Positions 23,882-51,050 of a stretch of DNA of 64,000 nt are shown here, piece by piece. The first letter of the stretch is position 1. Each line of letters starts with the position of its first letter. The stretch is from Cupriavidus sp. EM10 (GTDB lineage: Bacteria; Pseudomonadota; Gammaproteobacteria; Burkholderiales; Burkholderiaceae). The notes under the pieces were generated by a model, which was not told where the DNA came from, ran no database searches, and saw only the letters and a program-made list of their open reading frames with translations. The stretch covers positions 149,625 to 213,624 of the forward strand of contig NZ_CP076063.1 in assembly GCF_018729255.1 (NCBI RefSeq). The letters run 5' to 3'. A program made the position numbers and the translations under genes.

Positions 23882-24902
23882 TTACGCGGCTCGGCTTGCC
23901 TGCCGAGTGGCGGCACCGATCGTGTAGAAGCCGCGCACGTTCGCGAAACAGGGGGAGTCCATCATGTGGATGGGGTTCAGCGGAAACGCAGCGCGAATGG
24001 CAGGTGCATAGAGCTGCGCGCCGCCGCCGGTCAGGATGATGGCACGCAAGTCGTCGGTTCGGCCGACGCGCGTCTGGATTTCCTTTACGGGCTGATTTGT
24101 GAGCGCCATCGCTTCAGACAGATACGGTCCCATATCCAGATCCTCCCCAAAATACACGAGCGGCTTGGATTCCCGAATGGCCTGGTCGATGCGCTCGATG
24201 CCGGCATCCGGTTGGTTGCGGTCCGCGGAGATCAGGCTTGCGACCTGCTGATAGATGCGCGCTGCGCCGCCTGGAACGCCACCGCTGCGCGTGTCGTCGA
24301 CCGTGTAGCCGCGCGCCACAACCCAGTCGGTCGTGAAGTAGCCGACGTCGATCACCAGGTACGCGTTTTCCGGATCGTAGTTCTTGCCGCGTTGCTGGAT
24401 GTAGTTGATCAGCGTGCCCAGCGGCTGGGGCAAGGGAAGCACGCTGCCGATATGGATTTCCCCCAACCGAAGTCATGGATTCCCGCGAAGCGGTCCTTCA
24501 GGTGCGCAGCGTATTTCTGCGTGTTGTGAACGGGAAGGCCCAGCACAAGGCGCTCCACGTCGCGCGCGCCAGCGTAGTGCAGCGCGCCGGCGAGGAGAGC
24601 GGCGTAGCCCGGAGTCGTCGCGAAGTCTTCCGAAAGTGCGCGGCCGGTGTGATGCGCGCCACTGATCGATACGCCGGGACCCACCTCGTACCGCGCACCA
24701 TCAACTTCGACGCTGAGGACATTGCGGCCTTTGAATACCCCCCACCGAAGGAGTTCAGGGAACTGTTCGCTGCGAGCGGTGCGAGCGACGGGAACATATT
24801 CGTCGCGATCTCGGCGCCCATTGCCCAAGCGGCTTTCGTATTGCCGTAGCCAACGTCGATGGCGATGGTCGGGTGCTTGATAAGTTCGTTCTGTTGTTTC
24901 AT
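23882..24902 (-). CDS. Actin-like plasmid segregation protein, PRTRC protein D/StbA/ParM type, frameshifted twice
   Basis: Starts MKQQNELIKHPTIAIDVGYGNTKAAWAMG: DVGYGNTK is the actin-fold phosphate-1 motif. Two lost G (near 24742 and 24464) are needed; between them lies NVLSVEVDGARYEVGPGV and LVLGLPVHNTQKYA, and after the second YLVIDVGYFTTDWV (phosphate 2) and AIILTGGGAQLYAPAI (adenosine motif). Repaired length about 340, normal for PRTRC protein D and ParM-like proteins, which form filaments that push plasmid copies apart. It is encoded about 20 kb from the PRTRC cassette. Confidence 0.78.
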
Positions 24903-31144: not shown

Positions 31145-32390
31145 TGTCGTTTGGGTTGAGTGGCCCATTGCATGGCCGGGTGCATCTGAAAGCCGTCGAA
31201 CTGGCGGAACAGTTCGGCGGCACCGCGCGCGTATTGCAGGATCCATTCCGTTGCGATCCAGCGCCGACCTAACCTCTCGGCGGCCAGGCCGGTGCGAATC
31301 GTCCCGCCAAATGGATCAACCACAAGGTCGCCTGGCTGGGACAGGAACCGCGTGAAGAAGTCGGGGATGTCGGTAGGCTGCATGGCGCCGTGGGTCGGCA
31401 AGCCGAGTGCCTGGGCGGCACGGCGATAGGCGCGAGTGTCCGAGCAGCTGTGGCCGCGCTCGATGACGTTCCGAGGCAGCCGCCCGGCCGTCTGGTTGCC
31501 GAAGGCGCTCTGCCGAATGCGATAGGCGCCATCTCCGTACACAGCGTTGCGCTGCTCCCGCCGGCGGCGATCAGTCGCTGGTGCCGTTCGGTGTGGGCTT
31601 GGAGAATCTGGCGGTTATCGGCCCGCACGCAGGCGGGATCGTTTGTGAACCAGAGCACGGGCTCGTAAGCCGATGTGAGCTGGACATGTTCCACGCAGGC
31701 CCATCGCGTGGGCCCTGGCGGCTTGCTGTAGTTCACCCAGGGCACCCGGCCCATCAGCGACAGGCCGAGCCGGTCGTGCAATGCCAGCGTCAGGCGCTCG
31801 ATATAGAGAGAGCGGGCCGGACTGCGCGGCTCGAAGATGTCGTTCGACACGTTGAGGACGATGCTACCGCCGGGCACCAGCCCTGCAACGATGGGTTCGA
31901 GCGCCTCGCACAGGAAATCGACGTATTGCGCCTCGGCGGGATTGCCATAGGCGCGCGCCTGGCGCAGCGGGTAGGGTGGCGACGTGACGCACAGCGCAAT
32001 CGGCTCGCCGAGGCCACGAAACACGTCTTCGTGGCGCGCCCACACGGCCATGCCGAGCGTGGTGCTGAAGGCGACCAGCCGCACGCCGTCAGCGGCGCGA
32101 TCCAGCTCCTTCGTTACCGGCTGCGTCAGCTTCCAGAAGCCGGCGCGGTCGGCCACCCGCTCCACGATGCCCATGGATTTCAATGTCTGTTGGTGCCAGC
32201 GAACAGCGCGCTTGAACGGGCTGTGCAGTGCGCCCGCGGCGCCGACCGGGATTCTGGCGGAAGCTTTGTCGGCGCCGATGCCGGCCGCAGTCGCGACTGC
32301 TTCGTACAGATGCGCGGTGGCGATGCCTTCGGGGGGCGCCTCGGCGAACGCCGCCGCGACGTGGCCAAACAGGCTCAGTCGATCCATCAC
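31141..32390 (-). CDS. Site-specific DNA methyltransferase (TSPPY type), frameshifted
   Basis: Residues 1-90 form a winged-helix-like region; the catalytic motif is TSPPY (VTSPPYPL), commonly found in N4-cytosine and some N6-adenine enzymes. One lost base near 31544 is needed to reach the C-terminal part with the SAM-binding end motif DPFGGTIRTGLAAERLGRRWIATEW. Order is catalytic motif first, SAM motif last (beta type). About 415 residues. No cognate nuclease is beside it, so it is an orphan methylase that could mask plasmid DNA from restriction. Confidence 0.75.
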
Positions 32391-33508
32391 TTCGCTCCCC
32401 GCGCCAGTGCGCGTCCGCAGGCAGCGCCGACGTCGAGCGACGTCACCGGGAAGGCGTCATGGACCACCCCGTCCAGCAGCCGGCCGGAGGCCTTCTTCCC
32501 GACAGCGTGCATCACGGTCACTGGAAAGCTCCCTGCGTCGCGTGCGCGCATGAAATCTTCCCCGCACTCGAGCGGCACGCCGTGCCTGTCGAGGCAGGTC
32601 CCGCCCGCGACCCATGTCTGCGCTTTGCTCACCCATTGCTGGAACGACGCGAACTCGCGGAATGTCGGTCTCCCCGTAGATCCGTCCACGACTGCCGTGT
32701 GCCAGTGCCCCCATTGCTTGAAGAGGTAGGGCACGCCGGCCGTCGCGCATTGGTCGCGCAGGGACCGCGCCCATGCCGGGTGCATCGGCCGGGCGCCGGC
32801 GGCGCTCTCACCTCCCACGATGATCCAGTCGAGGGCGCCCGGCTCGTAGTCGTTGCCGGACGTGTGCAACAGTTCGCCGGTCGCAGAGGAGAAAACGTCG
32901 ACATGGCCGAGCAGCGGCTCCATCGAAAGGAACCGCGTCTTTGCCGGCGTGCGCAGCAGCTTGGGGATATCGCGATCCGCTTCGGCCTGGTTCACGACCG
33001 TTGCACCGAGCCAGATATCGGCGGGCGCATTGCCGGCGATCCAAGTCGCCAGCCAAGGTACGAGCGGATTCTCTGCACAATCGTCGCGCAGCATCAGCGT
33101 GTTGAACGCCTCGCCGAGCCGCTTCGTAGCGTTACCGATGCGCTTGGTCAGCACGAGTTTGTCCAGGTGCGGCGTCTGGCGCCAAACATCAAGCACGTCG
33201 ATAAGCCATTCGATAGGGACGGCGGTATCGAACACGTCGGCCAGGCTTGCGCAGAAGACGCGCTGGCGGCGGCCGTGGACCGCAGCGAACGCGGCGTGAG
33301 CAGCGTTCCACCGAAACATTTTTCGCCAGTTGGCTGCGGAGGTGCGGCGGCGCGGCGCCCCTGGTCCCCAGTTCGGGGCAACGCCCCCGCCAAACCGTTG
33401 GTTGCGGGTTTCGGCATAGCAATGGTCGCAGCCTGGGCCTACCTTCTGGCAGCCTTCCCACGGGTTCCAGGTGTGGTCGGTCCACTCGATCTTCGTGTTT
33501 TCGCTCAT
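32387..33508 (-). CDS. Phage Gp37/Gp68-like (DUF5131) protein
   Basis: 373 residues opening with MSENTKIEWTDHTWNPWEGCQKVGPGCDHCYAET, the diagnostic start of this family (TxxTWNPxxGC...CxxCYA). Further landmarks are VFCASLADVFD, LTKRIGN, WLGATVVNQ and IIVGGESAAGARPMHPAW. The cysteine trio resembles radical-SAM enzymes, but the reaction is unknown. Carried by phages and plasmids. The stop overlaps the methyltransferase start. Confidence 0.82.
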   Translation of the reverse strand: MSENTKIEWTDHTWNPWEGCQKVGPGCDHCYAETRNQRFGGGVAPNWGPGAPRRRTSAANWRKMFRWNAAHAAFAAVHGRRQRVFCASLADVFDTAVPIEWLIDVLDVWRQTPHLDKLVLTKRIGNATKRLGEAFNTLMLRDDCAENPLVPWLATWIAGNAPADIWLGATVVNQAEADRDIPKLLRTPAKTRFLSMEPLLGHVDVFSSATGELLHTSGNDYEPGALDWIIVGGESAAGARPMHPAWARSLRDQCATAGVPYLFKQWGHWHTAVVDGSTGRPTFREFASFQQWVSKAQTWVAGGTCLDRHGVPLECGEDFMRARDAGSFPVTVMHAVGKKASGRLLDGVVHDAFPVTSLDVGAACGRALARGAK

Positions 33509-40939: not shown

Positions 40940-43900
40940 ATGACTTATTGGTACGAGCCCTTGCGGGCCATCGTTAGCCTCGGCTCGCAAGCCGACAAGA
41001 TCGCTCACATGGGCGAGCTGCACGCTGCGCGGGAGAAGCATTTGTCGCAGTTCTTCACCCCCGACGCCATTGCGCGGCTCATGTGGGGCGTCGTCGAGAC
41101 CTGGCGCCCCGGCCGGAAGATATCGGTTCTGGACAATTCGGTCGGCTCGGCCCGGCTGATGCAGTATGCCGATCCGGCGCAGCACAGCCTGTATGGTGTT
41201 GACGTGCACGAGCCGGTGATCGCGGCAGTCCAGCAGTGCATCGAGGCCGCCGGCTTCGAAGGCAGCTTCCGCATGGCGGGCATGGAGGAAATCCATCCCC
41301 GGCGATTTGACGTCGCCATCATTAATCCGCCGTTCTCGATCCATCTGGAATCGCCGCATCTGCAGCCGCTCGGTTGCACGACCTGGGGAAGATTCGGGCC
41401 CAACAGCAGCGCTCTGAGCCACGAGTATGCGTTGGCTCAGGCGCTGGAGGCGGCACAGCTCGTTGTGGCGCTCTTGCCCACAAGCTTTGTTGACCGTTTC
41501 GTCAACGTTCTGGATCACCGGGACGCGCACATTACTGCCGCCCGCCGCGTGGTCGGCATCTTCGACCTGCCGGCATCGGCCTTCCGGGAGGAAGGCGCGA
41601 CGGTGCACACCTCCATTGCGGTCTTTGGCCGCTATCGGATGGGCCGAGTTGTGCGGCAGTCGCACAGCGATTTGACCATTCCCTTGCCCGCGCTGGACCT
41701 GAATCTCGATGATCGAATCTTCGGAGAGGCACGACTAGGGCACCAGACGCTGGATGACGCGGGCCCTGCCATTACGCGCCCCGTGACCTCGCAGAAACGG
41801 GTACGCATTGCCCATGATGGCCGCCGGATTGTCCTGGGATTTGAGTGCGGCTTCGTCGAAGCAATGGTGCTGAACCGTGTCCTCGATTGCAGGATCCGGC
41901 CGTTGGATGGCCAGCGCCTGCCGCAAGGCATGCACTACGCCGGCAGCGGCCGCCTCGATCTCGAGGCCTATCTGGTGCAGGACGACCCGATGGCGGCGCT
42001 GGATGGCTTGCTGCGGCTGATTCGCGGCGCCGGCGGCGTACCGCAACTGGCCCCGGGGTTCCTCGAGCATTTCCGCAAGCGGGTACGGCGCAGCGCGCGC
42101 CAGGCTACGCCGCTGCGGCACACGGTCTGGACGACGGGTGTGAATGCAGCGGAAGCGATCTTCGGCCTGGCCCTCAAAAGCCATGTGGCGGATGCGGCAA
42201 AGTGGGGCAGCCCCGTGATCAAGGCCGGCGAGACCGTGGCGTTTGCGCGGCAGCCGGACGGCCGCTACGCCTACCACGCCGGCGGCAGTCAGTTCGTGCT
42301 AACGCTGGACGAGCTGATGGGGCGTTTTGCCGTCAGCAGATCAGAGCAGACCTGGGAAACCGTGCACGAAGGCTTGTCGGTGAAGTATCCGCAGCAAGCC
42401 CTGGCGCTGCGTCGCCGAATGCAGGCGCTGGGTATCGACCGCTGGCTAAACTGGGAATTTCAACAAAGTGACCTGGTGGAGCTGCTCCAGAAGCCCTGTG
42501 GTGCTGTGGCGGCGTGGGAACAGGGTTGCGGCAAATCGCGGCTCGCGGCGGGCTTGATCCTGCTGTCAGGGGTCAAGCACGGCCTGATCGTGGTCGAGTC
42601 GCGGCTGGTCCCGGAAATGCGTGCCGAACTGGCGCAGATCCTGCCGCCGCAGTCGGTGCATGTCATCGACTCGCCGGAAGCACTCGGGAAGCTGGGGCAG
42701 ATCAATCTCATCGCTTACGAGCGCTTGCGCATGCCGGTGTGTCGGGAAGCTTCCCGGCGCGTCACATATGCCCACAAGCTTCGGCGCAGGATTGGCCTTT
42801 TGGTGGCCGACGAGGGCGAGCGACTGTCCAACCCGACCAGCGACCAGAGCCGCGCGCTCTGGCAGCTGTCGGCGCGGCGGCGGTTCGTCCTGACGGGTAG
42901 CCCGATTGCGAACTATCCCCGTGACGTCTTCGGCCTGATTGCCTTTACGGGCGGCGACGGCACGGCGGCTCAGCCCTACGGTTATCGCCGCGGGTACCTG
43001 GATTGCCAATGGCTGGCGACCGCGCAGCACGCTCAACGCGGCGTGGACCGCTTCCGCGATGACTTCGTCGTGCTGGAATGGGTGACATGGGAATTCGCGG
43101 AGAGCCTGCAGGACGGCGCCAAGCGGGAAGTGCCAAAGATCGGCAATCTGCCGCTTTACCGCCAGATGCTGGCGCCGCACATCAAGCGGCGGCTAGTCTG
43201 CGAGCCCGACGTGGCCCGGTACATCCAGATCGATCCGCCGGCAGTCGAGGTGGTAGAGACGGATTGGGATCCGAGTCATCTGTCGCTGTACCTGCGCACG
43301 GCCGACGAGTTTGCGGAATGGTATCGGGATATTCGTCGTGCCGACGGACGCTCGAACAATCTGATTGCAATCCTCGCCCGCATCCGCGCCGTGCACTTCG
43401 CGGCCAACTACCCGCAGCATGGGGTGGAGGGCGTTGGGGCGCTGGGGCAGTTGACCAGCAAACAGCGTGCGGTGATTGAGCGAATGGAAGCCATCGCGGG
43501 TGAAGGTAAGCAGGCCATCCTGTTTGCCGAGAACCCGGGGGTGATCGACCTGATCGCCGGCCAACTGCAGGCGCGCGGCGTGGAGACTGTGCCGTTCCAC
43601 GGCGGCATTCCGATTGCGAAGCGCGTGGCCGACAAGGACAGGCGGTTCGTGAACGGGTCGGCCACCGGCCTGCTCTGCACCAAAGGGTCGGGCAGGGCAG
43701 GGTACAACCTGCCGAACGCTGACTATGTCCTCTTCTACGACCGTTCGTGGACGTGGCGCATCGAGTATCAGGCGATGCGGCGCGCGCTGCGTTGGAACCG
43801 GAGAGGGCAATTGAAGGTCGTGTATTTCCACCTGCCGGGGAGCATCGATGTCTACCAGGACCAAATGGTGGCGCACAAACGCGACGCCATGGAAGCCGGC

Positions 43901-44041
43901 TTGGACTGGGCGACCCCAGAGCTCGAAGACGAGGCGTTCCTGCACATGGACACGCTTCTCGATGCCTTTGTCGAGGACCTGGCGGCGCTACATGGCCGCA
44001 AGACCGGCGATCAACGACAACTGCTCAAGGAGGCAGCATGA
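40940..44041 (+). CDS. DNA methylase-SNF2-like helicase fusion (DarB-like anti-restriction candidate)
   Basis: 1033 residues. N-terminal adenine-methylase domain: HLSQFFTPDAIARLM (35-49), SAM-binding VLDNSVGSARL (63-73), catalytic NPPF at 129-132. C-terminal superfamily 2 helicase: Walker A GCGKS (529-533), DEGE (624-627), LTGSP (651-655), then the second RecA lobe with ILFAENPG, TVPFHGGI, STGLLC-type TGLLCTKGSGRAGYNLPNADYVLFYD and RALRWNRRGQ. No nuclease motif is seen. Methylase-then-helicase order without nuclease recalls DarB of phage P1 (much longer), which protects injected DNA from type I restriction. It lies in a transfer element, so a protective role is reasonable inference. Confidence 0.8.
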   Translation: MTYWYEPLRAIVSLGSQADKIAHMGELHAAREKHLSQFFTPDAIARLMWGVVETWRPGRKISVLDNSVGSARLMQYADPAQHSLYGVDVHEPVIAAVQQCIEAAGFEGSFRMAGMEEIHPRRFDVAIINPPFSIHLESPHLQPLGCTTWGRFGPNSSALSHEYALAQALEAAQLVVALLPTSFVDRFVNVLDHRDAHITAARRVVGIFDLPASAFREEGATVHTSIAVFGRYRMGRVVRQSHSDLTIPLPALDLNLDDRIFGEARLGHQTLDDAGPAITRPVTSQKRVRIAHDGRRIVLGFECGFVEAMVLNRVLDCRIRPLDGQRLPQGMHYAGSGRLDLEAYLVQDDPMAALDGLLRLIRGAGGVPQLAPGFLEHFRKRVRRSARQATPLRHTVWTTGVNAAEAIFGLALKSHVADAAKWGSPVIKAGETVAFARQPDGRYAYHAGGSQFVLTLDELMGRFAVSRSEQTWETVHEGLSVKYPQQALALRRRMQALGIDRWLNWEFQQSDLVELLQKPCGAVAAWEQGCGKSRLAAGLILLSGVKHGLIVVESRLVPEMRAELAQILPPQSVHVIDSPEALGKLGQINLIAYERLRMPVCREASRRVTYAHKLRRRIGLLVADEGERLSNPTSDQSRALWQLSARRRFVLTGSPIANYPRDVFGLIAFTGGDGTAAQPYGYRRGYLDCQWLATAQHAQRGVDRFRDDFVVLEWVTWEFAESLQDGAKREVPKIGNLPLYRQMLAPHIKRRLVCEPDVARYIQIDPPAVEVVETDWDPSHLSLYLRTADEFAEWYRDIRRADGRSNNLIAILARIRAVHFAANYPQHGVEGVGALGQLTSKQRAVIERMEAIAGEGKQAILFAENPGVIDLIAGQLQARGVETVPFHGGIPIAKRVADKDRRFVNGSATGLLCTKGSGRAGYNLPNADYVLFYDRSWTWRIEYQAMRRALRWNRRGQLKVVYFHLPGSIDVYQDQMVAHKRDAMEAGLDWATPELEDEAFLHMDTLLDAFVEDLAALHGRKTGDQRQLLKEAA

Positions 44042-44289: not shown

Positions 44290-44328
44290 CGAGCTTTCAG
44301 GGTCATCCGACCTAGCATTCCCCATATG

Positions 44329-44410
44329 ATGATTCCTGTAGCGCGACCCCGCTACAGGCTCTCTCAGATGGACCCGTTCCTACCCGCCCCACTGTTGTGG
44401 GGGCTTTTTT
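44329..44410 (+). terminator. Hairpin plus intrinsic terminator
   Basis: CCTGTAGCG...CGCTACAGG, then at 44386-44410 GCCCCAC-TGTT-GTGGGGGC and T6. The first hairpin with its TGATTCC prefix resembles the leader near 39230. Confidence 0.75.
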
Positions 44411-44461
44411 GCCCAAAGATTGGGGGATAGTTGTTCGGGGCAACACGAAAGGAGAAAAGAT

Positions 44462-44824
44462 ATGGCGTTTGACGCCACAAGCATTGAATACGCCTTTGCC
44501 AAGCTGCTCGGCAACGAAATCGGAGCTAGAGGGACCGTCTTTGACGCGGATATCTTCAGGGCCGGTCGGGAAAAAGACTTGGCCAGAGTCTTGGGCAAGG
44601 CCGCTGACGCTCTGGAGGCCCGCGTTAATCGGCTCTCATTTCCTGAACCCGCCACGCTGGCTGGCGGCAGCAAAGCAAGAATCGATGTCGCAGTTGCCAG
44701 ACTGAGGCGCATTGCCGGTGTGCTTTCAACTTCGACAAATGTGGCGGCAGTTGGGTACTCCTGGGAGGTGATTGGTTGCCTGGTGTCCACGATTGCTGCG
44801 CTTCTTGAAGAATTGGAGCGGTAG
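44462..44824 (+). CDS. Small unknown protein upstream of the PRTRC cassette
   Basis: 120 residues, MAFDATSIEYAFAKLLGNEIGARGTVFDADIF..., alpha-helical. GGAG is 9 bases before the ATG. No motif recognised. It lies between the methylase-helicase unit and the PRTRC leader. Confidence 0.55.
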   Translation: MAFDATSIEYAFAKLLGNEIGARGTVFDADIFRAGREKDLARVLGKAADALEARVNRLSFPEPATLAGGSKARIDVAVARLRRIAGVLSTSTNVAAVGYSWEVIGCLVSTIAALLEELER

Positions 44825-44884
44825 GCCGGTTCTTCGTCGGTATTGCAGGGAGGGCAGTTATGCGCTATCCTCGCCGCACCCACC

Positions 44885-45031
44885 GCGTCCTAGACGCATC
44901 GATCCCGCACCTCCGGGTGCCAGCTTTTTGCAGTACGGTGGCCGCCAGCATAGCCTGGTAGTCCATCCTTCCATCCCACCGGGAACCACGTTCCCGGTGC
45001 GGCAACGGGTTCCCCATTTCCGCGAGAACCC
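44885..45031 (+). promoter_or_regulatory. ATCGAC-type composite leader of the PRTRC operon
   Basis: GCGTC-CTA-GACGC-ATCGAT, then GCACC-TCCG-GGTGC, then CACCGGGAA-CCACG-TTCCCGGTG, and finally GGGTTC...GAACCC ending three bases before the parB ATG, with the purine-rich GAGAA of the ribosome-binding region at its 3' arm. Four consecutive hairpins in 150 bases. Confidence 0.65.
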
Positions 45032-45034
45032 ACA

Positions 45035-46708
45035 ATGCAAAATCCCACTGTCGTTATTGGCAAGATCCGTCCTGGCTGCAACCCGCGCAAGTATTTCGAC
45101 CCTGCGGAGATGGCTGAACTGACCGAATCCATTCGCGTGGACGGTGTCATCCAGCCGATCCTCATCCGTCCCGTCGAGGACGAAGAGCACGGTCATGAGT
45201 ACGAGGTAGTTGCCGGTGAACGCCGCTACCGCGCTGCGCTTGCGGCCCACGGCGACGGGTACGAGATGCCCGTCAACATTAAGGTCCTGACGGACGCCGA
45301 AGCTCGCCGCTACGCGCTCATCGAAAACGTGCAGCGCGCCGACATGGCGCCGTCGGAGGAGGCCGCGTCCGCGGCTGAAATCGTTGGTCAGCTGAAAGGC
45401 GACCGCGACGAAGCGGCCCGCCAGCTTGGGTGGTCACGCTCCACACTCGACAAGCGCCTGGCACTGATGAACTGCAGCGAATCCGTTCTGGAAGCGCTCA
45501 ACACCCGTACCATCCAGCTCGGCCACGCCGAACTGCTGGCCACGCTCGCCAAGGACAAGCAGGACAAGCTCCTGCCGGTCATCGTGAGCGAGAAGAAGCC
45601 CGTCGCCGAGTTGAGGAAAACGATCGAGGCGGCTGCGTGCAGCCTCGAGGCCGCCATCTTCGACAAGACCGAATGCGCGGCCTGTCCGCACAATTCGTCG
45701 TTGCAGACGGAGATGTTCGGCGAGGCGATCGCCACCGGGAACTGTACCAACCGCGCGTGCTACGACGGCAAGCTCACCAGCAAGCTCGAAGGCATTGCCT
45801 ACGGGCTCAAGGACGAGTATCCGATCGTGCGGATTATCCGCTCGGGTGACAACCACACCCGGATCCAGTTAAAGGTCGAAGGCCCGACGGGCGTCGGCGA
45901 AGAACAGGCGAAAGCTTGCCACGCGTGCCAGAATTTCGGCGCCGCCGTGAGCGGCCTCCCCGATTCCATGGGGAAGGTCTACGGCGGCCAGTGTTTCGAC
46001 ACGGTGTGCAACCAGCAGAAGGTCGCGGCCCGCATCAAGGCCGAGAAGGAAGCGGCCACGCCCACCACAGCCAAACCGGCTGCGGGCGGCAAAGCAGCAC
46101 CTGCGAAGAAGGGCGATTCGTCGGCTTCGGCTGCGGAGAAGCCGGTGACTGCGATCAGCGAATCCGACAAGGTCAAGACCTATCGTACTTCGCTGTGGCG
46201 CAAGGCACTGCGCAAGGAAGTCGCGCAGAACCCTGACCAGGCGAACGCCTACCTGCTGGCAGTTGCCCTGAACGGGCTGGCACGCAACATCGCCGGCGAC
46301 GTGATGGGCAAGTTCTTCGAGAAGCTGACCGAGCAGAAGTCGTCCTCGACGCTGCAGGGTTGCCTCACGGCTATCCACGCGTTGGATGACCAGAGGCGAC
46401 AGCAGCTGACGATCGGCCTCACCGTTGCGGCAATCGACGGCGTGGAGGTGAGCAACCTCCGCGAACTCTGCCGGCATCACAAGCTCGACCTGCGGCCGCA
46501 CTGGAACCTCCAGAATGCGCAGGATTTTCTTGAAATGCTCACCAAGTCGGAGATGAAGGTTCTCGCCGACGAAATGGGCATCCGCAAGGCGCTGGGCGAC
46601 CAGTTCGCCAAGCTCTTCAACAAGCCCAAGCCGGAAGTCATTGCCGGCCTGTTGGCGGTGAAGAACTTCGACTACAGCGGCAAGGTGCCGAAGGTCCTGC
46701 ACTACTAG
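45035..46708 (+). CDS. PRTRC system ParB-family protein
   Basis: 557 residues. ParB N-terminal domain: IRPGCNPRKYFDPAEMAELTESI and the GERRYRAA box (53-60 region), then a helix-turn-helix (DEAARQLGWSRSTLDKRLALM). After it come cysteine clusters CAACPHNSS, GNCTNRACYDGK and CHACQNFG, as in PRTRC ParB, possibly zinc-binding. A Lys/Ala linker leads to a C-terminal helical domain. First gene of the cassette ParB-E-C-F-B-A-ThiF. ParB-type proteins bind DNA and use CTP as clamps in partition; role within PRTRC is not established. Confidence 0.9.
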   Translation: MQNPTVVIGKIRPGCNPRKYFDPAEMAELTESIRVDGVIQPILIRPVEDEEHGHEYEVVAGERRYRAALAAHGDGYEMPVNIKVLTDAEARRYALIENVQRADMAPSEEAASAAEIVGQLKGDRDEAARQLGWSRSTLDKRLALMNCSESVLEALNTRTIQLGHAELLATLAKDKQDKLLPVIVSEKKPVAELRKTIEAAACSLEAAIFDKTECAACPHNSSLQTEMFGEAIATGNCTNRACYDGKLTSKLEGIAYGLKDEYPIVRIIRSGDNHTRIQLKVEGPTGVGEEQAKACHACQNFGAAVSGLPDSMGKVYGGQCFDTVCNQQKVAARIKAEKEAATPTTAKPAAGGKAAPAKKGDSSASAAEKPVTAISESDKVKTYRTSLWRKALRKEVAQNPDQANAYLLAVALNGLARNIAGDVMGKFFEKLTEQKSSSTLQGCLTAIHALDDQRRQQLTIGLTVAAIDGVEVSNLRELCRHHKLDLRPHWNLQNAQDFLEMLTKSEMKVLADEMGIRKALGDQFAKLFNKPKPEVIAGLLAVKNFDYSGKVPKVLHY

Positions 46709-46777
46709 TTGTTCACCCATCCAGAGGGCGCCCCAGGTGCCTTCTGTCTTTTTCTGACTCCCCATTCCATTTCACCT

Positions 46778-47227
46778 ATGTTCACTGAACTTGCACCCCT
46801 CGTGCGTGCGGCCGACAAGGTCGTCCTCACACTGACCATGACCGGCGACGCGATGACCGTAGTCGTCATGCCCGTCATCAAGAATGCCGCTGATGCGGCG
46901 CTGACCACGCCGCTGTCGCTCACCGCGACGCCGACGGAACTGGATGCCGAATTCGCCGCGACCGTCACGGGCGTGACGGATGCGCACCGGTCCCTCGCCG
47001 AACAGGCCGAAGCCACGAAGTCCATTCTGGATGCCGCGAAGTCGACCCAGTCTTCCAAGGCAACGAAAGCGCTGGCCAAGGCGGCGACGCCTTCGGGCGG
47101 TGCTGCGGATGATGGCGACGACGATGCCGAAGAGGGTGGATCGACGGCGGCCGATGCGAAGGTGGAGGCGAAAGCCGACACCGCCGCACCGGCCAACACC
47201 GGTACCGACCTCGCCTCGCTGCTGTAA
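46778..47227 (+). CDS. PRTRC system protein E
   Basis: 149 residues, MFTELAPLVRAADKVVLTLTMTGDAMTVVVMPVIK... An N-terminal beta-helix domain is followed by an Ala/Asp/Glu-rich disordered tail ending TDLASLL. Second gene of the cassette, and its start and size match protein E as known from PRTRC loci. A hairpin (AGAGGGC...GTGCCTTCT) lies between parB and this gene. Role unknown. Confidence 0.8.
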   Translation: MFTELAPLVRAADKVVLTLTMTGDAMTVVVMPVIKNAADAALTTPLSLTATPTELDAEFAATVTGVTDAHRSLAEQAEATKSILDAAKSTQSSKATKALAKAATPSGGAADDGDDDAEEGGSTAADAKVEAKADTAAPANTGTDLASLL

Positions 47228-47238
47228 GGAGAACCACC

Positions 47239-47469
47239 ATGGCACTCGAAGTCACCAAGCTCACGCGCGTGTTCTCCTACAACGGCATGACGCTGCCGGA
47301 TGTGAGTCCGCAGTTCTCGCCCGATCAGGTGCGCGACGTCTATTCCGCCCAGTATCCCGAGCTGACCACCGCCGCGGTGGATGGACCGGAGGTAAAGGAC
47401 GGTGTTGCTCGCTTCACGTTCGTGCGCGCCGCTGGCGCCAAGGGCGCGGCATGCGCAAATCTGACCTGA
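47239..47469 (+). CDS. PRTRC system protein C (ubiquitin-like candidate)
   Basis: 76 residues. The pattern LTRVFSYNGMTLPDVSPQFSPDQVRDVYSAQYPELTTAAVDGPEV is the protein C signature, a small beta-grasp-like fold. After FVRAAGAKG69 seven residues remain (AACANLT). Family members often end at or soon after the G of this (T/A)KG motif, so the tail may be removed to expose a C-terminal glycine, as in ubiquitin-like modifiers. With E1-, E2- and JAMM-like genes in the same operon, a modifier role is a reasoned inference. Confidence 0.85.
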   Translation: MALEVTKLTRVFSYNGMTLPDVSPQFSPDQVRDVYSAQYPELTTAAVDGPEVKDGVARFTFVRAAGAKGAACANLT

Positions 47470-47509
47470 TGAAGGCACTGGCCGCTGGCCAGTTCCCCAC
47501 AACCACGGA

Positions 47510-47533
47510 GCCGCCCGAAAGGGCGGTTTTTTT
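47510..47533 (+). terminator. Intra-operon terminator/attenuator
   Basis: CCGCCC-GAAA-GGGCGG and T7 between proteins C and F. It would give more of ParB, E and C than of F, B, A and ThiF. Confidence 0.85.
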
Positions 47534-47554
47534 ACATTCTGAGGAGACTCAACA

Positions 47555-48688
47555 ATGCTGTTCGACCCTCGGTCGTTTGTTCCAGCGGTCGATGCAGGAC
47601 AACCCGGATGGACGCCTGCGCGACAGCATCCCGTTGCCCAACGTCGACCTGCCCATGATTTTCTGACGCTCCCCGCCATCCCGGCGGGACTTCCCTCGAC
47701 GGCGCGACTCAGCTTCGGTGACGAGATCGATCTGAAGGATCTGGTCTTGGCACAGTTTCGCGCTGGTGTACTCGACGCCGAGCATGTAACCAGTCCGTCC
47801 AGCGCGGGAGATGCATTCGCCCAGGCCTTCCACGGCTGGCTTGCACCGCGCATGCCGGCCACCAAGGTGCTGAGCTTCGACTTCACTCTTATCGACCACC
47901 AGGCGGTAGAGACAGAGATCGCCGATTTTGGCTTCGATATGCAGGAGACCTCGGCCCTCTATCTTGGCATTCGCCTCGAAGAGGAAACGGTCTATACCGT
48001 CACAGAGGCGCGCGCGGCGGCATTGCGTGAATTGCATCCTTCGTTGGTCTTCATGACGTTCCACCTGATCCGTGCAGCTGCTTCCAAGTCGCTGCACCTC
48101 AGAACGCCGGACGATTTGCTGGATATGTTCGCGCGATGGCATTGGGACTTTGAACCGCTGACCGACGACGAGGATGCTCGCGAGCACCTCAAGGAGCGCT
48201 TCGGCGCTGACGATGCGGACATCAACCGGTATCTGCCTTCGGTCGTCCGCCCGGTGCTGGCCCCCGACGAAACGTTGCCGAAGTGGCAGTGGGCGCAGAA
48301 GGACAGGAAGCTGTCCCTCCTGAGCCGCCGCAAGCTGCGTGAGTTGGCGCGCGCGGCTGCGAACGACTGGCGCGGTAGCCTATGCGGCGCACTTGCGGAT
48401 CTCGACTTGGCGCTCAGCCAGATGGGCAACACGACTCTGCTACAGAACGCGCAATGGGCAGAGCCAGCCTATTCGGCTGCAACCCTCGCGTATGAACACA
48501 CCGACTACGTTGGTGAAGTACTTGATGACCACTTCGAGTGTGCCAACAACGGCGGCTACGCGACGTATTTCCAGTGCTTTATCCCCCTTGCTGCGAAGCA
48601 AGCGGCTATCAAGCGGCAATACGCCGCGCTACACGACACGCTCAAGCTGATCGCCGTACTGGATCGTGTGCTTGAGCATTTCAACTGA
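47555..48688 (+). CDS. PRTRC system protein F
   Basis: 377 residues from MLFDPRSF, after GAGGAGA. The long frame is open, but between about 47580 and 47655 another frame has far better codon quality (third positions almost all G/C) and reads FQRSMQDNPDGRLRDSIPLPNVDLP, then HDFLTLPAIPAG returns to the long frame. This suggests small indels at the 5' end, so the first 35 residues are uncertain. The remainder (LSFGDEIDLKDLVLAQF...LAYEHTDYVGEVLDDHFECANNGGY) is soluble; NNGGYATYFQCFIPLAAKQ is conserved-looking. Role unknown. Confidence 0.8.
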   Translation: MLFDPRSFVPAVDAGQPGWTPARQHPVAQRRPAHDFLTLPAIPAGLPSTARLSFGDEIDLKDLVLAQFRAGVLDAEHVTSPSSAGDAFAQAFHGWLAPRMPATKVLSFDFTLIDHQAVETEIADFGFDMQETSALYLGIRLEEETVYTVTEARAAALRELHPSLVFMTFHLIRAAASKSLHLRTPDDLLDMFARWHWDFEPLTDDEDAREHLKERFGADDADINRYLPSVVRPVLAPDETLPKWQWAQKDRKLSLLSRRKLRELARAAANDWRGSLCGALADLDLALSQMGNTTLLQNAQWAEPAYSAATLAYEHTDYVGEVLDDHFECANNGGYATYFQCFIPLAAKQAAIKRQYAALHDTLKLIAVLDRVLEHFN

Positions 48689-48700
48689 AGAGGAGGCCGT

Positions 48701-49417
48701 ATGGCCAGTATCCTGACCGCGTCGCGGTCCCAAGACGTGGCCCTGCAAGGGGCGATTTTGCTTTATGGGCAGGGGCCGGGGCAGTTTTCCTACGCCACCG
48801 CGCATCGCATTGAAACCGACGCGTCCTCGCGTCCGGTGATCGGTGCGGGTGTGCCGCTCAATCGCATGGCGCTTATCCACGCCGTCCGCGAGGTTGCGCA
48901 GCATGCGCTGCCGAAGGGAGAGTTCCTCACCCCGAACGTGCTGTCGATCAGCACGAGTGCCATCACATGGTGGTGCCCGCCGGCGATGCGACGTGTTTTC
49001 TTTTCTTGCAAGGAGCTGGGCAAGCGCAGCGCGATCGTGCCGCATCCGGGCCTTGTATTCCAGGCGTCTCAGGCGGGCTTTGCAGTCTTTGCGCTGCAGG
49101 GCGCCGAACGCCCTGTTCCAGACACTCCGTTGTTCGAGCCACCGTACTTCAACACCTGGGACCACGGAAAGATCTGCATCGGCTCGGCACATGTGCCGAA
49201 GCAAATCGATGCAGCGTCGATCGACGGCTGGGAGAGCGGTTTTTTTGACTCGGCCTTCACCCATCCCAATCACGGCGGCAAACGTCTCACCTACGAAAAA
49301 GGGGAGTACGCCTTTTGGAAGGACATGCTCGATGGTCGGTTCACCGACTACCCGACGCAGGTCCTCGTTCCCATGAAAAGCACGCTGGCTGATCTGATCG
49401 CCGGCAAACTGGAGTAA
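48701..49417 (+). CDS. PRTRC system protein B (E2-like candidate)
   Basis: 238 residues. The C-terminal half has FEPPYFNTWDHGKICIGSAHVP with Cys159: the order aromatic-N-x-x-x-x-G-x-I-C-x-G resembles the active-site strand of ubiquitin-conjugating (E2) enzymes (HPN...G-x-V/I-C-L). A preceding beta region (SISTSAITWWCPPAMRRVFFSC and VPHPGLVFQA, with a Pro-rich turn) fits an E2/UBC core. Then FFDSAFTHPNHGGKRL. The assignment as protein B is by cassette position; E2-like chemistry is inferred from the Cys motif. Confidence 0.82.
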   Translation: MASILTASRSQDVALQGAILLYGQGPGQFSYATAHRIETDASSRPVIGAGVPLNRMALIHAVREVAQHALPKGEFLTPNVLSISTSAITWWCPPAMRRVFFSCKELGKRSAIVPHPGLVFQASQAGFAVFALQGAERPVPDTPLFEPPYFNTWDHGKICIGSAHVPKQIDAASIDGWESGFFDSAFTHPNHGGKRLTYEKGEYAFWKDMLDGRFTDYPTQVLVPMKSTLADLIAGKLE

Positions 49418-49421
49418 TCCC

Positions 49422-50063
49422 ATGCATCCTGCAGACACGGCCCTGCAAGGGTCATTTCCATCCGTCATGGTGCCGCGCTTTGGGCAGCTTGCGGCGATGG
49501 ACCGGCCCGGTGAACGCTTGCTTATCGCATCGAACGGTGTTTTCCTCGAGATCGCCCGACCCTGGATTCGCGTGGTGCGCCGGCTAGGCGTCTTCAGCCA
49601 TCGCACTGCCATCCCCTATGGCGAGGTGGAAGAAACGACCGATCTGCGTTGCGGCCGCGTGCCTGCCGCGCTGATCGGTGAGTTTGCTGCCATGGCACGG
49701 GCTGCGCACCCGAAGGAAACCGGTGCCTGGATCGTCTGGAATGCCGCTAGCGCGGCGTTCCGGCTGATCCCGGTCGGCATCCTTGAGCACAGCGGCGGGC
49801 ACCTGAAGTACGAGCGCCCTAAGCTGGCCGGTGACGACGTGCTGGTGGTTGACTGCCACTCGCATGGCAGCCATCCCGCATTTTTTTCTGACACCGACGA
49901 CGAAGATGACCGCCACGACGTGAAGTTTGCGTTCGTGATCGGCAATTGCGCGGCGCATGCACCATCGATGGCGCTGCGGTTCTGTGCCAAGGGAATCTTC
50001 GAGAAGGTGGAGCGGGTGCCTGCAGAGTGGTACGCAGCTGCTCGCGAGGAGGTGCTGGCATGA
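49422..50063 (+). CDS. PRTRC system protein A (JAMM/JAB isopeptidase fold)
   Basis: 213 residues. The JAMM metal motif is complete: His146-Ser-His148, seven residues, Ser156, two residues, Asp159 (CHSHGSHPAFFSDTDD). An upstream Glu (ETGAWIVW, 99) could be the catalytic acid. JAMM enzymes cut isopeptide or C-terminal extensions of ubiquitin-like proteins. Starts four bases after protein B stop and overlaps ThiF at its end, so B, A and ThiF are translated together. Confidence 0.88.
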   Translation: MHPADTALQGSFPSVMVPRFGQLAAMDRPGERLLIASNGVFLEIARPWIRVVRRLGVFSHRTAIPYGEVEETTDLRCGRVPAALIGEFAAMARAAHPKETGAWIVWNAASAAFRLIPVGILEHSGGHLKYERPKLAGDDVLVVDCHSHGSHPAFFSDTDDEDDRHDVKFAFVIGNCAAHAPSMALRFCAKGIFEKVERVPAEWYAAAREEVLA

Positions 50064-50860
50064 CCTTCGAGCATCGAATCCCCGCGGCCATGACCACGCA
50101 CGCCTGGAAGGTTGCGGTAGTCGGTGCCGGTGGCACCGGCAGCGCGCTGTTGCCGAATCTTGCACGGTTGCATCACGCCATGCTGGAGCTCGGGCACCCC
50201 GGAGGTATCGACTGCACGGTCTACGATGACGACACCGTCAGCGAGACCAACGTCGGTCGGCAGGGGTTCTATCCCGTGGATGTCGGCCAGCACAAGGCCA
50301 CACTGATCGTGAACCGGCTGAACAACCTGATGGGCACTCGCTGGGAAGCGCGGACCCGCAGGATAGGCAGCGGCGACCGATTGGTGTGTGACCTGGTGAT
50401 CGGCTGCGTTGATACGCGGGCTGCACGCAAGGGAATCCTCGGTGCGATGCAACGCGGTACGGGTGGCTACTATCTCGACTGCGGCAATGAGTCGGACAGT
50501 GGCCAGGTGATCCTGGGTCAGGTACGCGGCAAAGCGGCGGTGCGGCTTCCGCATGTAGGGGATCTGTTTCCGGAGCTACTGGACCCGAAAGGGGACAAGG
50601 CCGACACGGCGCCGTCCTGCTCAATGGCCGACGCATTGCAAAAGCAGTCGCTGGTCATCAATCAGGCGATCGCGGTGCAGGCCTACAACTTGTTGTGGAC
50701 GTTGTTCCGAACCGGGACGCTGCAGTACCACGGCGCCTTCGTCAATCTCACGTCAGGGCGCACGAGTGCGCTGCCGATCGACCCGGCGGCATGGGAGCGC
50801 TTCAGCTACAAGCCTGGCGCATCCAAGGCTAAGGCTAACCGCAAGCCCCAATCCGTTTGA
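50060..50860 (+). CDS. PRTRC system ThiF-family (E1-like) protein
   Basis: 266 residues. Nucleotide-binding VVGAGGTGSALLPNLARL (Gly22, 24, 25, 27), acidic YDDDTVSETNVGRQGF (the D-x-x-x-x-x-N-x-x-RQ element of adenylating enzymes), IGCVDTRAARK, and Cys187 in TAPSCSMADA as possible catalytic thiol. ThiF/E1 proteins adenylate the C-terminal glycine of a small beta-grasp protein and pass it on as a thioester. Last gene of the cassette; followed by a strong terminator. Confidence 0.9.
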   Translation: MTFEHRIPAAMTTHAWKVAVVGAGGTGSALLPNLARLHHAMLELGHPGGIDCTVYDDDTVSETNVGRQGFYPVDVGQHKATLIVNRLNNLMGTRWEARTRRIGSGDRLVCDLVIGCVDTRAARKGILGAMQRGTGGYYLDCGNESDSGQVILGQVRGKAAVRLPHVGDLFPELLDPKGDKADTAPSCSMADALQKQSLVINQAIAVQAYNLLWTLFRTGTLQYHGAFVNLTSGRTSALPIDPAAWERFSYKPGASKAKANRKPQSV

Positions 50861-50862
50861 AC

Positions 50863-50892
50863 AGCCACTCCCATTGCGGGAGTGGCTTTTTT
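50863..50892 (+). terminator. Terminator of the PRTRC operon
   Basis: AGCCACTCCC-ATTGC-GGGAGTGGCT followed by T5. Confidence 0.92.
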
Positions 50893-50949
50893 CTTTGGAG
50901 CGCTCGTTGCGGGATGTCATGCCTGGCTGCTACTATGGCGCCACACCTC

Positions 50950-51050
50950 GCGCCGCTGGCGCATCGACACGTGGCACTCGCCACACAATGTTTTTCAACC
51001 CGTTGGGGCACTTGCCCTGGCGGAGTGCTCCAACTTCCTCGGAGCACTCC
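50950..51050 (+). promoter_or_regulatory. ATCGAC-type composite leader of the DUF3085 gene
   Basis: GCGCC-GCT-GGCGC-ATCGAC: the fourth and fifth stem pairs differ from the common GCGTC/GACGC form but still pair. Then GTGGC-ACTC-GCCAC, and a perfect 10-bp hairpin GGAGTGCTCC...GGAGCACTCC ending one base before the ATG, with the GGAG ribosome-binding site in its 3' arm. Confidence 0.68.

Follow-up and report, generated by a model that had tools for sequence, protein, structure and literature searches.

Tails on the ubiquitin-like protein of PRTRC cassettes occur only beside a JAMM protein: a predicted conjugation pathway of plasmids and some phages

Ubiquitin-like (Ubl) pathways of bacteria are now mostly studied in defence settings. 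The Bil system (BilABCD) and the type II CBASS proteins Cap2/Cap3 follow a common logic of activating enzyme (E1), conjugating enzyme (E2), Ubl protein or tag and JAMM protease, and Bub operons, likened here by their description in the part of the source available, encode a ubiquitination-like pathway for which CapK and CapS are described as regulators. Among the closest described systems is type 6d of Iyer et al. 2006 (PMC1779556), given in the available part of that paper as a Ub-like protein, JAB, an E1-like, an E2-like and an alpha-helical protein (Table 1, row 6d). The same part describes the Ub-like protein as small, its C-terminal Gly as highly conserved and the JAB as bearing an extra N-terminal alpha+beta domain, calls the His downstream of the E2 Cys absolutely conserved, and predicts that in operons with E2 homologs JAB both processes the Ub-like protein and strips it from its targets. 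We here analyse a PRTRC cassette in a 64,000-nucleotide stretch of Cupriavidus sp. EM10 (contig NZ_CP076063.1; hereafter the window), which forms the final 64 kb of a contig 213,624 bases long in a genome of four contigs. As far as the available part of the 2006 paper goes, five PRTRC proteins (C, A, ThiF, B and F) are those of type 6d, with no difference in the mechanism proposed, and the E1/E2/Ubl/JAMM reading of PRTRC is therefore already published (Iyer et al. 2006). What we add is a rule linking the tail of protein C to the JAMM protein A, which is evidence for JAMM maturation, together with cassettes that lack A or ParB and cassettes carried by phages; the words 'ParB' and 'partition' are absent from the text of PMC1779556. 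No experimental study of the PRTRC Ubl pathway was found in the literature searched, which covered few subscription papers and no preprints.

All seven cassette genes lie on the + strand at window positions 45035-50860 in the order ParB-E-C-F-B-A-ThiF, with intergenic gaps of 69, 11, 85, 12, 4 and -4 nucleotides when E is started at 46778. Scored against the NCBIfam PRTRC models (TIGR03734-TIGR03742) at their curated cut-offs, with Pfam run alongside, all seven proteins exceeded the cut-off. The co-directional run of seven genes with short gaps or overlap, reported in a first-pass annotation of the window, is confirmed. Protein C, the Ubl modifier (47239..47469), scores 97.9 bits against Prok_Ub and 117.3 against TIGR03738 (cut-off 46.0); its conserved GAKG ends at Gly69, and a seven-residue tail, AACANLT, lies beyond. 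The E1-like ThiF (50060..50860; ThiF 56.4 bits; TIGR03736 348.9 bits, cut-off 144.8) has GxGGxG, NxxRQ and a candidate catalytic Cys187, and the E2-like protein B (48701..49417; Prok-E2_D 196 bits; TIGR03737 290.2 bits, cut-off 131.5) has Asn151-x7-Cys159, a GxIC motif and His188. Protein A, the JAMM metalloprotease (49422..50063; Prok-JAB 73.4 bits; TIGR03735 240.6 bits, cut-off 101.8), carries the JAMM residues E99, H146, H148, S156 and D159 and an N-terminal DUF2016 domain (103.8 bits). The alpha-helical protein F (47555..48688) matches alpha-hel2 (163.2 bits) and TIGR03742 (211.6 bits, cut-off 58.4). For protein E (TIGR03741 104.1 bits, cut-off 38.0) the open frame spans 46709-47227, but relatives start MF.EL, which points to the ATG at 46778 as the likely start (46778..47227); its acidic tail ends DLASLL. 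The 557-residue ParB (45035..46708; TIGR03734 759.9 bits, cut-off 278.6; Pfam ParB_N and HTH_ParB) has GERRxxA and ENxxR motifs, which we take to be of the CTP type, and two CxxC...CxxxxC cysteine clusters. The profile searches proposed in the first-pass annotation thus matched PRTRC families for all seven proteins and Prok-E2_D, Prok-JAB and ThiF by Pfam, although Pfam names such as Prok_Ub and Prok-E2_D carry the 2006 prediction and are not independent evidence. The closest named relatives of the window C and B also come from Cupriavidus.

For comparison, cassettes were collected from plasmids (12 regions), IMG/VR and GTDB contigs, and their genes were found with purpose-built profiles that were built from and searched against the same loci. 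From 277 loci including the window, 39 without a recognised ThiF or C were dropped (the Deinococcus plasmid L040 among these), and removal of near-identical ThiF reduced the remaining 238 to 168 non-redundant cassettes. The set is defined by C, B and ThiF, and counts of 169 are these 168 plus one phage. Cassettes are called A-less when no A match lies within 9 kb of ThiF; in these, A may be elsewhere in the cell. Frames were taken from the first start codon, which leaves some N ends over-long, and the window ThiF was used as 304 residues. Wherever the profile stopped too soon, the tail call was amended, by rule where C ends in [KN]G and by hand in L240, L070 and L042; L070 had earlier been scored as the sole A-less case with a tail, and its C, which ends AGQLG, was rescored as tail-less.

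Protein C extends beyond its conserved Gly in 64 of the 90 cassettes with A within 9 kb and in 0 of the 78 without A. The tails are 1 to 122 residues long; those of 50-122 residues (L258, L102, L169 and others) exceed a simple propeptide and might be domains in their own right. Without A, C ends in KG (71 cassettes), NG (4), LG (2) or HG (1), across a range that takes in Pseudomonas, Vibrionaceae, Aeromonas and Bacteroidota as well as many viral contigs. In three viral cassettes without A (L267, L270 and L287) C ends exactly at PKG, RKG and PKG, and among the A-bearing cassettes listed from the same viral scans 26 of 34 have a C tail of more than 20 residues. The sole A that has lost a JAMM His (L136) sits in a cassette whose C needs no cutting. 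Among 120 close C relatives listed, 109 are tailed past the GAKG-type motif, 10 end there and 1 is partial.

If A and tails did no more than trace shared lineages, the rule would be an accident of descent. Many tailed cassettes are indeed close kin, such as a Burkholderiaceae clade with short tails, sign tests restricted to well-supported branches have too few pairs, and in a smaller first set the likelihood test gave p 3.8e-5 but the simulation 5/80. Against shared descent, the ThiF tree, which comes from a short search and has no bootstraps, needs a minimum of 10 changes for A and 19 for the tail, and the B tree (FastTree) 8 and 19. On the ThiF tree, the Markov models fit better when the rate of tail gain may vary with A (twice the log-likelihood difference 22.05, p 2.7e-6); for the full dependent model, in which some rates lie at their bounds, the improvement is 36.4 (4 degrees of freedom, p 2.4e-7). 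Dependence is also favoured on the B tree with the isolated phage added (p 1.1e-4). Of 2259 simulations in which about as many rows were tailed, none left every A-less row tail-less (mean 34.7 tailed). An accident of descent is, in our judgement, very unlikely. Because tails occur only with A and the likelihood tests support dependence, A is very probably the maturation protease of pro-C. Where A accompanies a tail-less C (26 cassettes), it must serve another role, plausibly deconjugation.

The residues on which a conjugation pathway would depend are retained across phyla, and the anatomy is a conserved one. The conserved Gly of C stands at the profile end or the protein end in 168/168 cassettes, and Gly69 is the sole invariant column in C alignment A4 (72 rows). 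Cys159 of B is Cys in 169/169 (146/147 in an earlier alignment, with one gap) and Asn151 is Asn in 167/169, at the Cys-8 position that we take to be that of the Asn in the eukaryotic HPN motif. A His occupies the B His188 column in 103/169 and lies at most 45 residues past the Cys in 156/169, so the downstream His is present in the window and not absolute across the wider set. In ThiF, Cys187 is Cys in 168/168, and GxGGxG, D, NxxRQ and K are kept in 167-168/168. In A, Glu99, His146, Ser156 and Asp159 are found in 90/90 and His148 in 89/90. The E1 motifs of ThiF, the E2 Cys of B, the JAMM motif of A and the glycine of C that the first-pass annotation had picked out in the window are therefore all present and conserved across cassettes, and the loss of the Cys and Gly among homologues, which it had named as contrary evidence, did not occur. 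As to the UBC-like and ubiquitin-like folds that it expected for B and C, the B model (predicted local distance difference test score 89.6) has a VIA structure-match list headed by E2 folds, and the C model looks ubiquitin-like by its VIA list; both lists are uniform, at low Z. Foldseek with the B model gave no match below 0.001, and sequence comparison with solved structures gave none beyond chance, within the thresholds applied, for A, for ThiF, or for C and B as single sequences and as profiles.

The cassette is also carried by some phages. Burkholderia phage BgVeeders33 (OK665841.1; L315 8180-12666) has E-C-F-B-A-ThiF with a long C tail after GTKG, its ThiF is annotated only as a dinucleotide-utilizing enzyme, and none of the seven proteins tested matched ParB. 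The VarioGold phage paper, which cites BgVeeders33, has no mention of ThiF, ubiquitin or PRTRC in the part available. On the IMG/VR contig L276, terminase, portal and major head genes lie downstream of ParB-C-B-A-ThiF, and contig L059 has terminase and amidoligase genes; a PHROGs search of genes from four IMG/VR contigs placed head or packaging genes in three (L276, L302 and L059). Not every IMG/VR contig with a cassette need be a phage. A Pseudomonas ThiF matches 3 of 50,697 phage records at E 0.001, and the L276 ThiF matches 9 phage records at E 1e-5; the full cassette was looked for only in BgVeeders33. A viral scan with the window ThiF alone confirmed no relative, and alignment searches then found many; PHROGs at E 1e-4 gave no family for the window E, C, F, B, A or ThiF. 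Nor is the cassette a rarity: among plasmids, tblastn with the window ThiF matched 376 of 72,556 records, 177 of them at 80% coverage or more. PRTRC_B was found in 48 of 299 genomes sampled from the host family and in 5 of 398 sampled from the host phylum, with the source genome counted both times.

The cassette is probably a pathway for Ubl conjugation that belongs to a mobile replicon. In it, C would be made with a tail that A cuts after Gly69, a step for which the co-evolution of tail and A argues strongly. Judging by families and residues, ThiF would adenylate Gly69 of C and take C onto Cys187, and B would receive it on Cys159 and conjugate it to a target lysine. As a guess, A may also remove C from the target, and the targets would most likely lie in the DNA maintenance machinery of the element, namely ParB where present, E, or parts of the replisome. 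This chain of activation, conjugation and deconjugation, which the first-pass annotation had put forward, stands as the best reading by residues and families; it had been published already, and its conjugation step and target remain predictions. The tail rule makes the 2006 prediction sharply testable, in that A should then cut C after Gly69 and the C of A-less cassettes should work without A. If the conjugation is real, ubiquitin-type tagging would be part of DNA maintenance in many plasmids and some phages, which falls outside the defence settings.

Two rival functions have to be weighed against conjugation, and each can point to a single plasmid whose cassette neighbours spoil a tidy account. 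C could be a ThiS/MoaD-like thiocarboxylate carrier that ThiF charges and A trims, with B acting in sulfur transfer or as a scaffold. QbsD/QbsE offer a known case of a carrier tail trimmed by a JAMM protein, the window ThiF also matches ThiF/MoeB models, and on an A-less Photobacterium plasmid (L050, 10199-12586) a gene annotated as phosphoadenosine phosphosulfate reductase family follows ThiF at about 0.5 kb. Sulfur operons of this kind are discussed by Iyer et al. (PMC1779556) in the part available. A carrier role is nevertheless unlikely, given that an E2-like B with its Cys in 169/169 and the Asn at Cys-8 in 167/169 accompanies C and ThiF, and that a Pfam scan of the window frames and of ten representatives of the neighbours, which covers part of the neighbours, gave no sulfur-metabolism family.

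The cassette could instead be a plasmid-borne relative of the CBASS, Bil or Bub immune operons, and on an A-less P. nitroreducens plasmid (L043, 10016-14427) it is followed by genes annotated as Shedu and Abi. The window ThiF weakly matches PADLOC E1-E2 models (best E 3e-5), and in the sources as far as available Bil uses E1, E2, Ubl and JAMM proteins and type II CBASS uses ubiquitin-like conjugation. However, of the six proteins searched with PADLOC at E 0.01, C, F, B, A and ParB had no match, and some phages themselves carry the cassette, with ParB, DnaB or terminase genes nearby. PRTRC also differs from Bil and CBASS in having a single-domain Ubl, a separate E1 and E2, and ParB, E and F as partners; BilA, in the part of its description available, has two Ubl domains and PRTRC C has one. 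We regard an immune function as quite improbable and retain conjugation as the preferred reading.

The association with ParB is less general than the first-pass annotation supposed when it described a pathway attached to a ParB. Of the 168 cassettes, 82 have a ParB within 9 kb (71 upstream on the same strand); none was found within 9 kb in the other 86, of which 71 have at least 3 kb of sequence upstream of C. Since it is not constant across cassettes, ParB is unlikely to be an obligate target, and as a general rule that role was rejected. Where a strong upstream ParB is present (64 cassettes), the CTP-site residues are conserved, and the cysteine clusters are kept in 54/64 and 42-47/64. A survey of ParB folds (PMC12704722) does not mention PRTRC, ubiquitin or ThiF in the part available. 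Protein E was found in 115 of the 168 cassettes and was rejected as a universal partner, as it was not found in 53 (45 of them with A), some of which may hold a diverged E that the profile misses. In a subset of 117 cassettes, 98 have a frame of more than 200 residues between C and B, in the F slot.

Replication genes recur beside the cassette. Of the 168 loci, 19 have a beta-clamp gene, in every case on the strand of the cassette. It immediately precedes E in 9 (L080, L068, L055, L071, L076, L070, L048, L066 and L234; gap -10 to 120 nucleotides) and immediately follows ThiF in 2, whereas the window itself yielded none. Genes for DnaB helicase occur in 18 of 117 loci, 17 of them downstream of ThiF, with clamp identity by Pfam DNA_pol3_beta and DnaB identity by Pfam each established on one representative. 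Because beta-clamp or DnaB genes recur there, we place the cassette in replicon maintenance. By analogy with the modification of PCNA in eukaryotes, C attached to ParB, E or an element-encoded sliding clamp might act as a reversible switch that hands DNA from replication to segregation, a doubtful idea as it stands. It draws on the 11 of 168 loci in which a co-directional clamp gene directly adjoins the cassette, and on the attenuator-like hairpin that some cassettes have downstream of ParB, E and C. Measured against the sliding-clamp binding consensus, the motif [SDGNTEA][LM]F is commoner in the second half of E than in shuffles (21/40 against a mean of 2.2 with A, 39/68 against 9.9 in A-less cassettes). 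A clamp-binding role of the E tail is not specifically supported, a like motif being present in 14/19 DnaN-linked E proteins and 59/96 others (p 0.44).

A neighbour cluster of about 691 residues occurs in nine loci (L053, L059, L063, L069, L072, L079, L093, L104 and L107), and the L059 gene of that length matches a PHROGs amidoligase family with 661 bits. The Opitutus contig L149 apparently holds two cassette-like sets, in the order BTTAECBBT.

Three terminator-like hairpins on the + strand were picked up by a hairpin scan, in the ParB-E gap (46722..46746), in the C-F gap with a T run (47507..47533) and past ThiF (50863..50896); the scan of 44300-51000 gave 12 hairpins against 5.9 expected from shuffles. 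Across cassettes a hairpin follows C in 31/168 (the window among them), ThiF in 27/168, B in 2/168 and E in 1/115, compared with 7/840 in shuffles, and those after C fall mostly in cassettes with A (27/31). With a hairpin after C, more of the modifier, E and ParB than of the enzymes would be made.

TrbI, pilus, secretion, primase-like, integrase-like and ParM-like genes were found around the cassette in the window, and these surroundings are compatible with a transmissible element. The window carries a canonical PRTRC system except for protein D (ParM/MreB-like), which TIGR03739 matches on the - strand at 23909..24863 in three separate stretches in different frames. These score 200.8, 94.8 and 32.8 bits, each below the cut-off of 214.8, and one of them matches MreB-like_C and ParM in Pfam; the split over frames could reflect either decay of the gene or errors in sequencing. 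Upstream of the cassette, at 40940-44041 (+), lies a 1033-residue protein with methylase-like and SNF2-helicase parts, and L041 and L049 likewise have annotated SNF2-related genes close to their cassettes. A DUF5131 protein adjoining a DNA methylase is encoded at 31269-33508 (-) and matches two candidate defence models of PADLOC with E 4e-48 and 8e-47.

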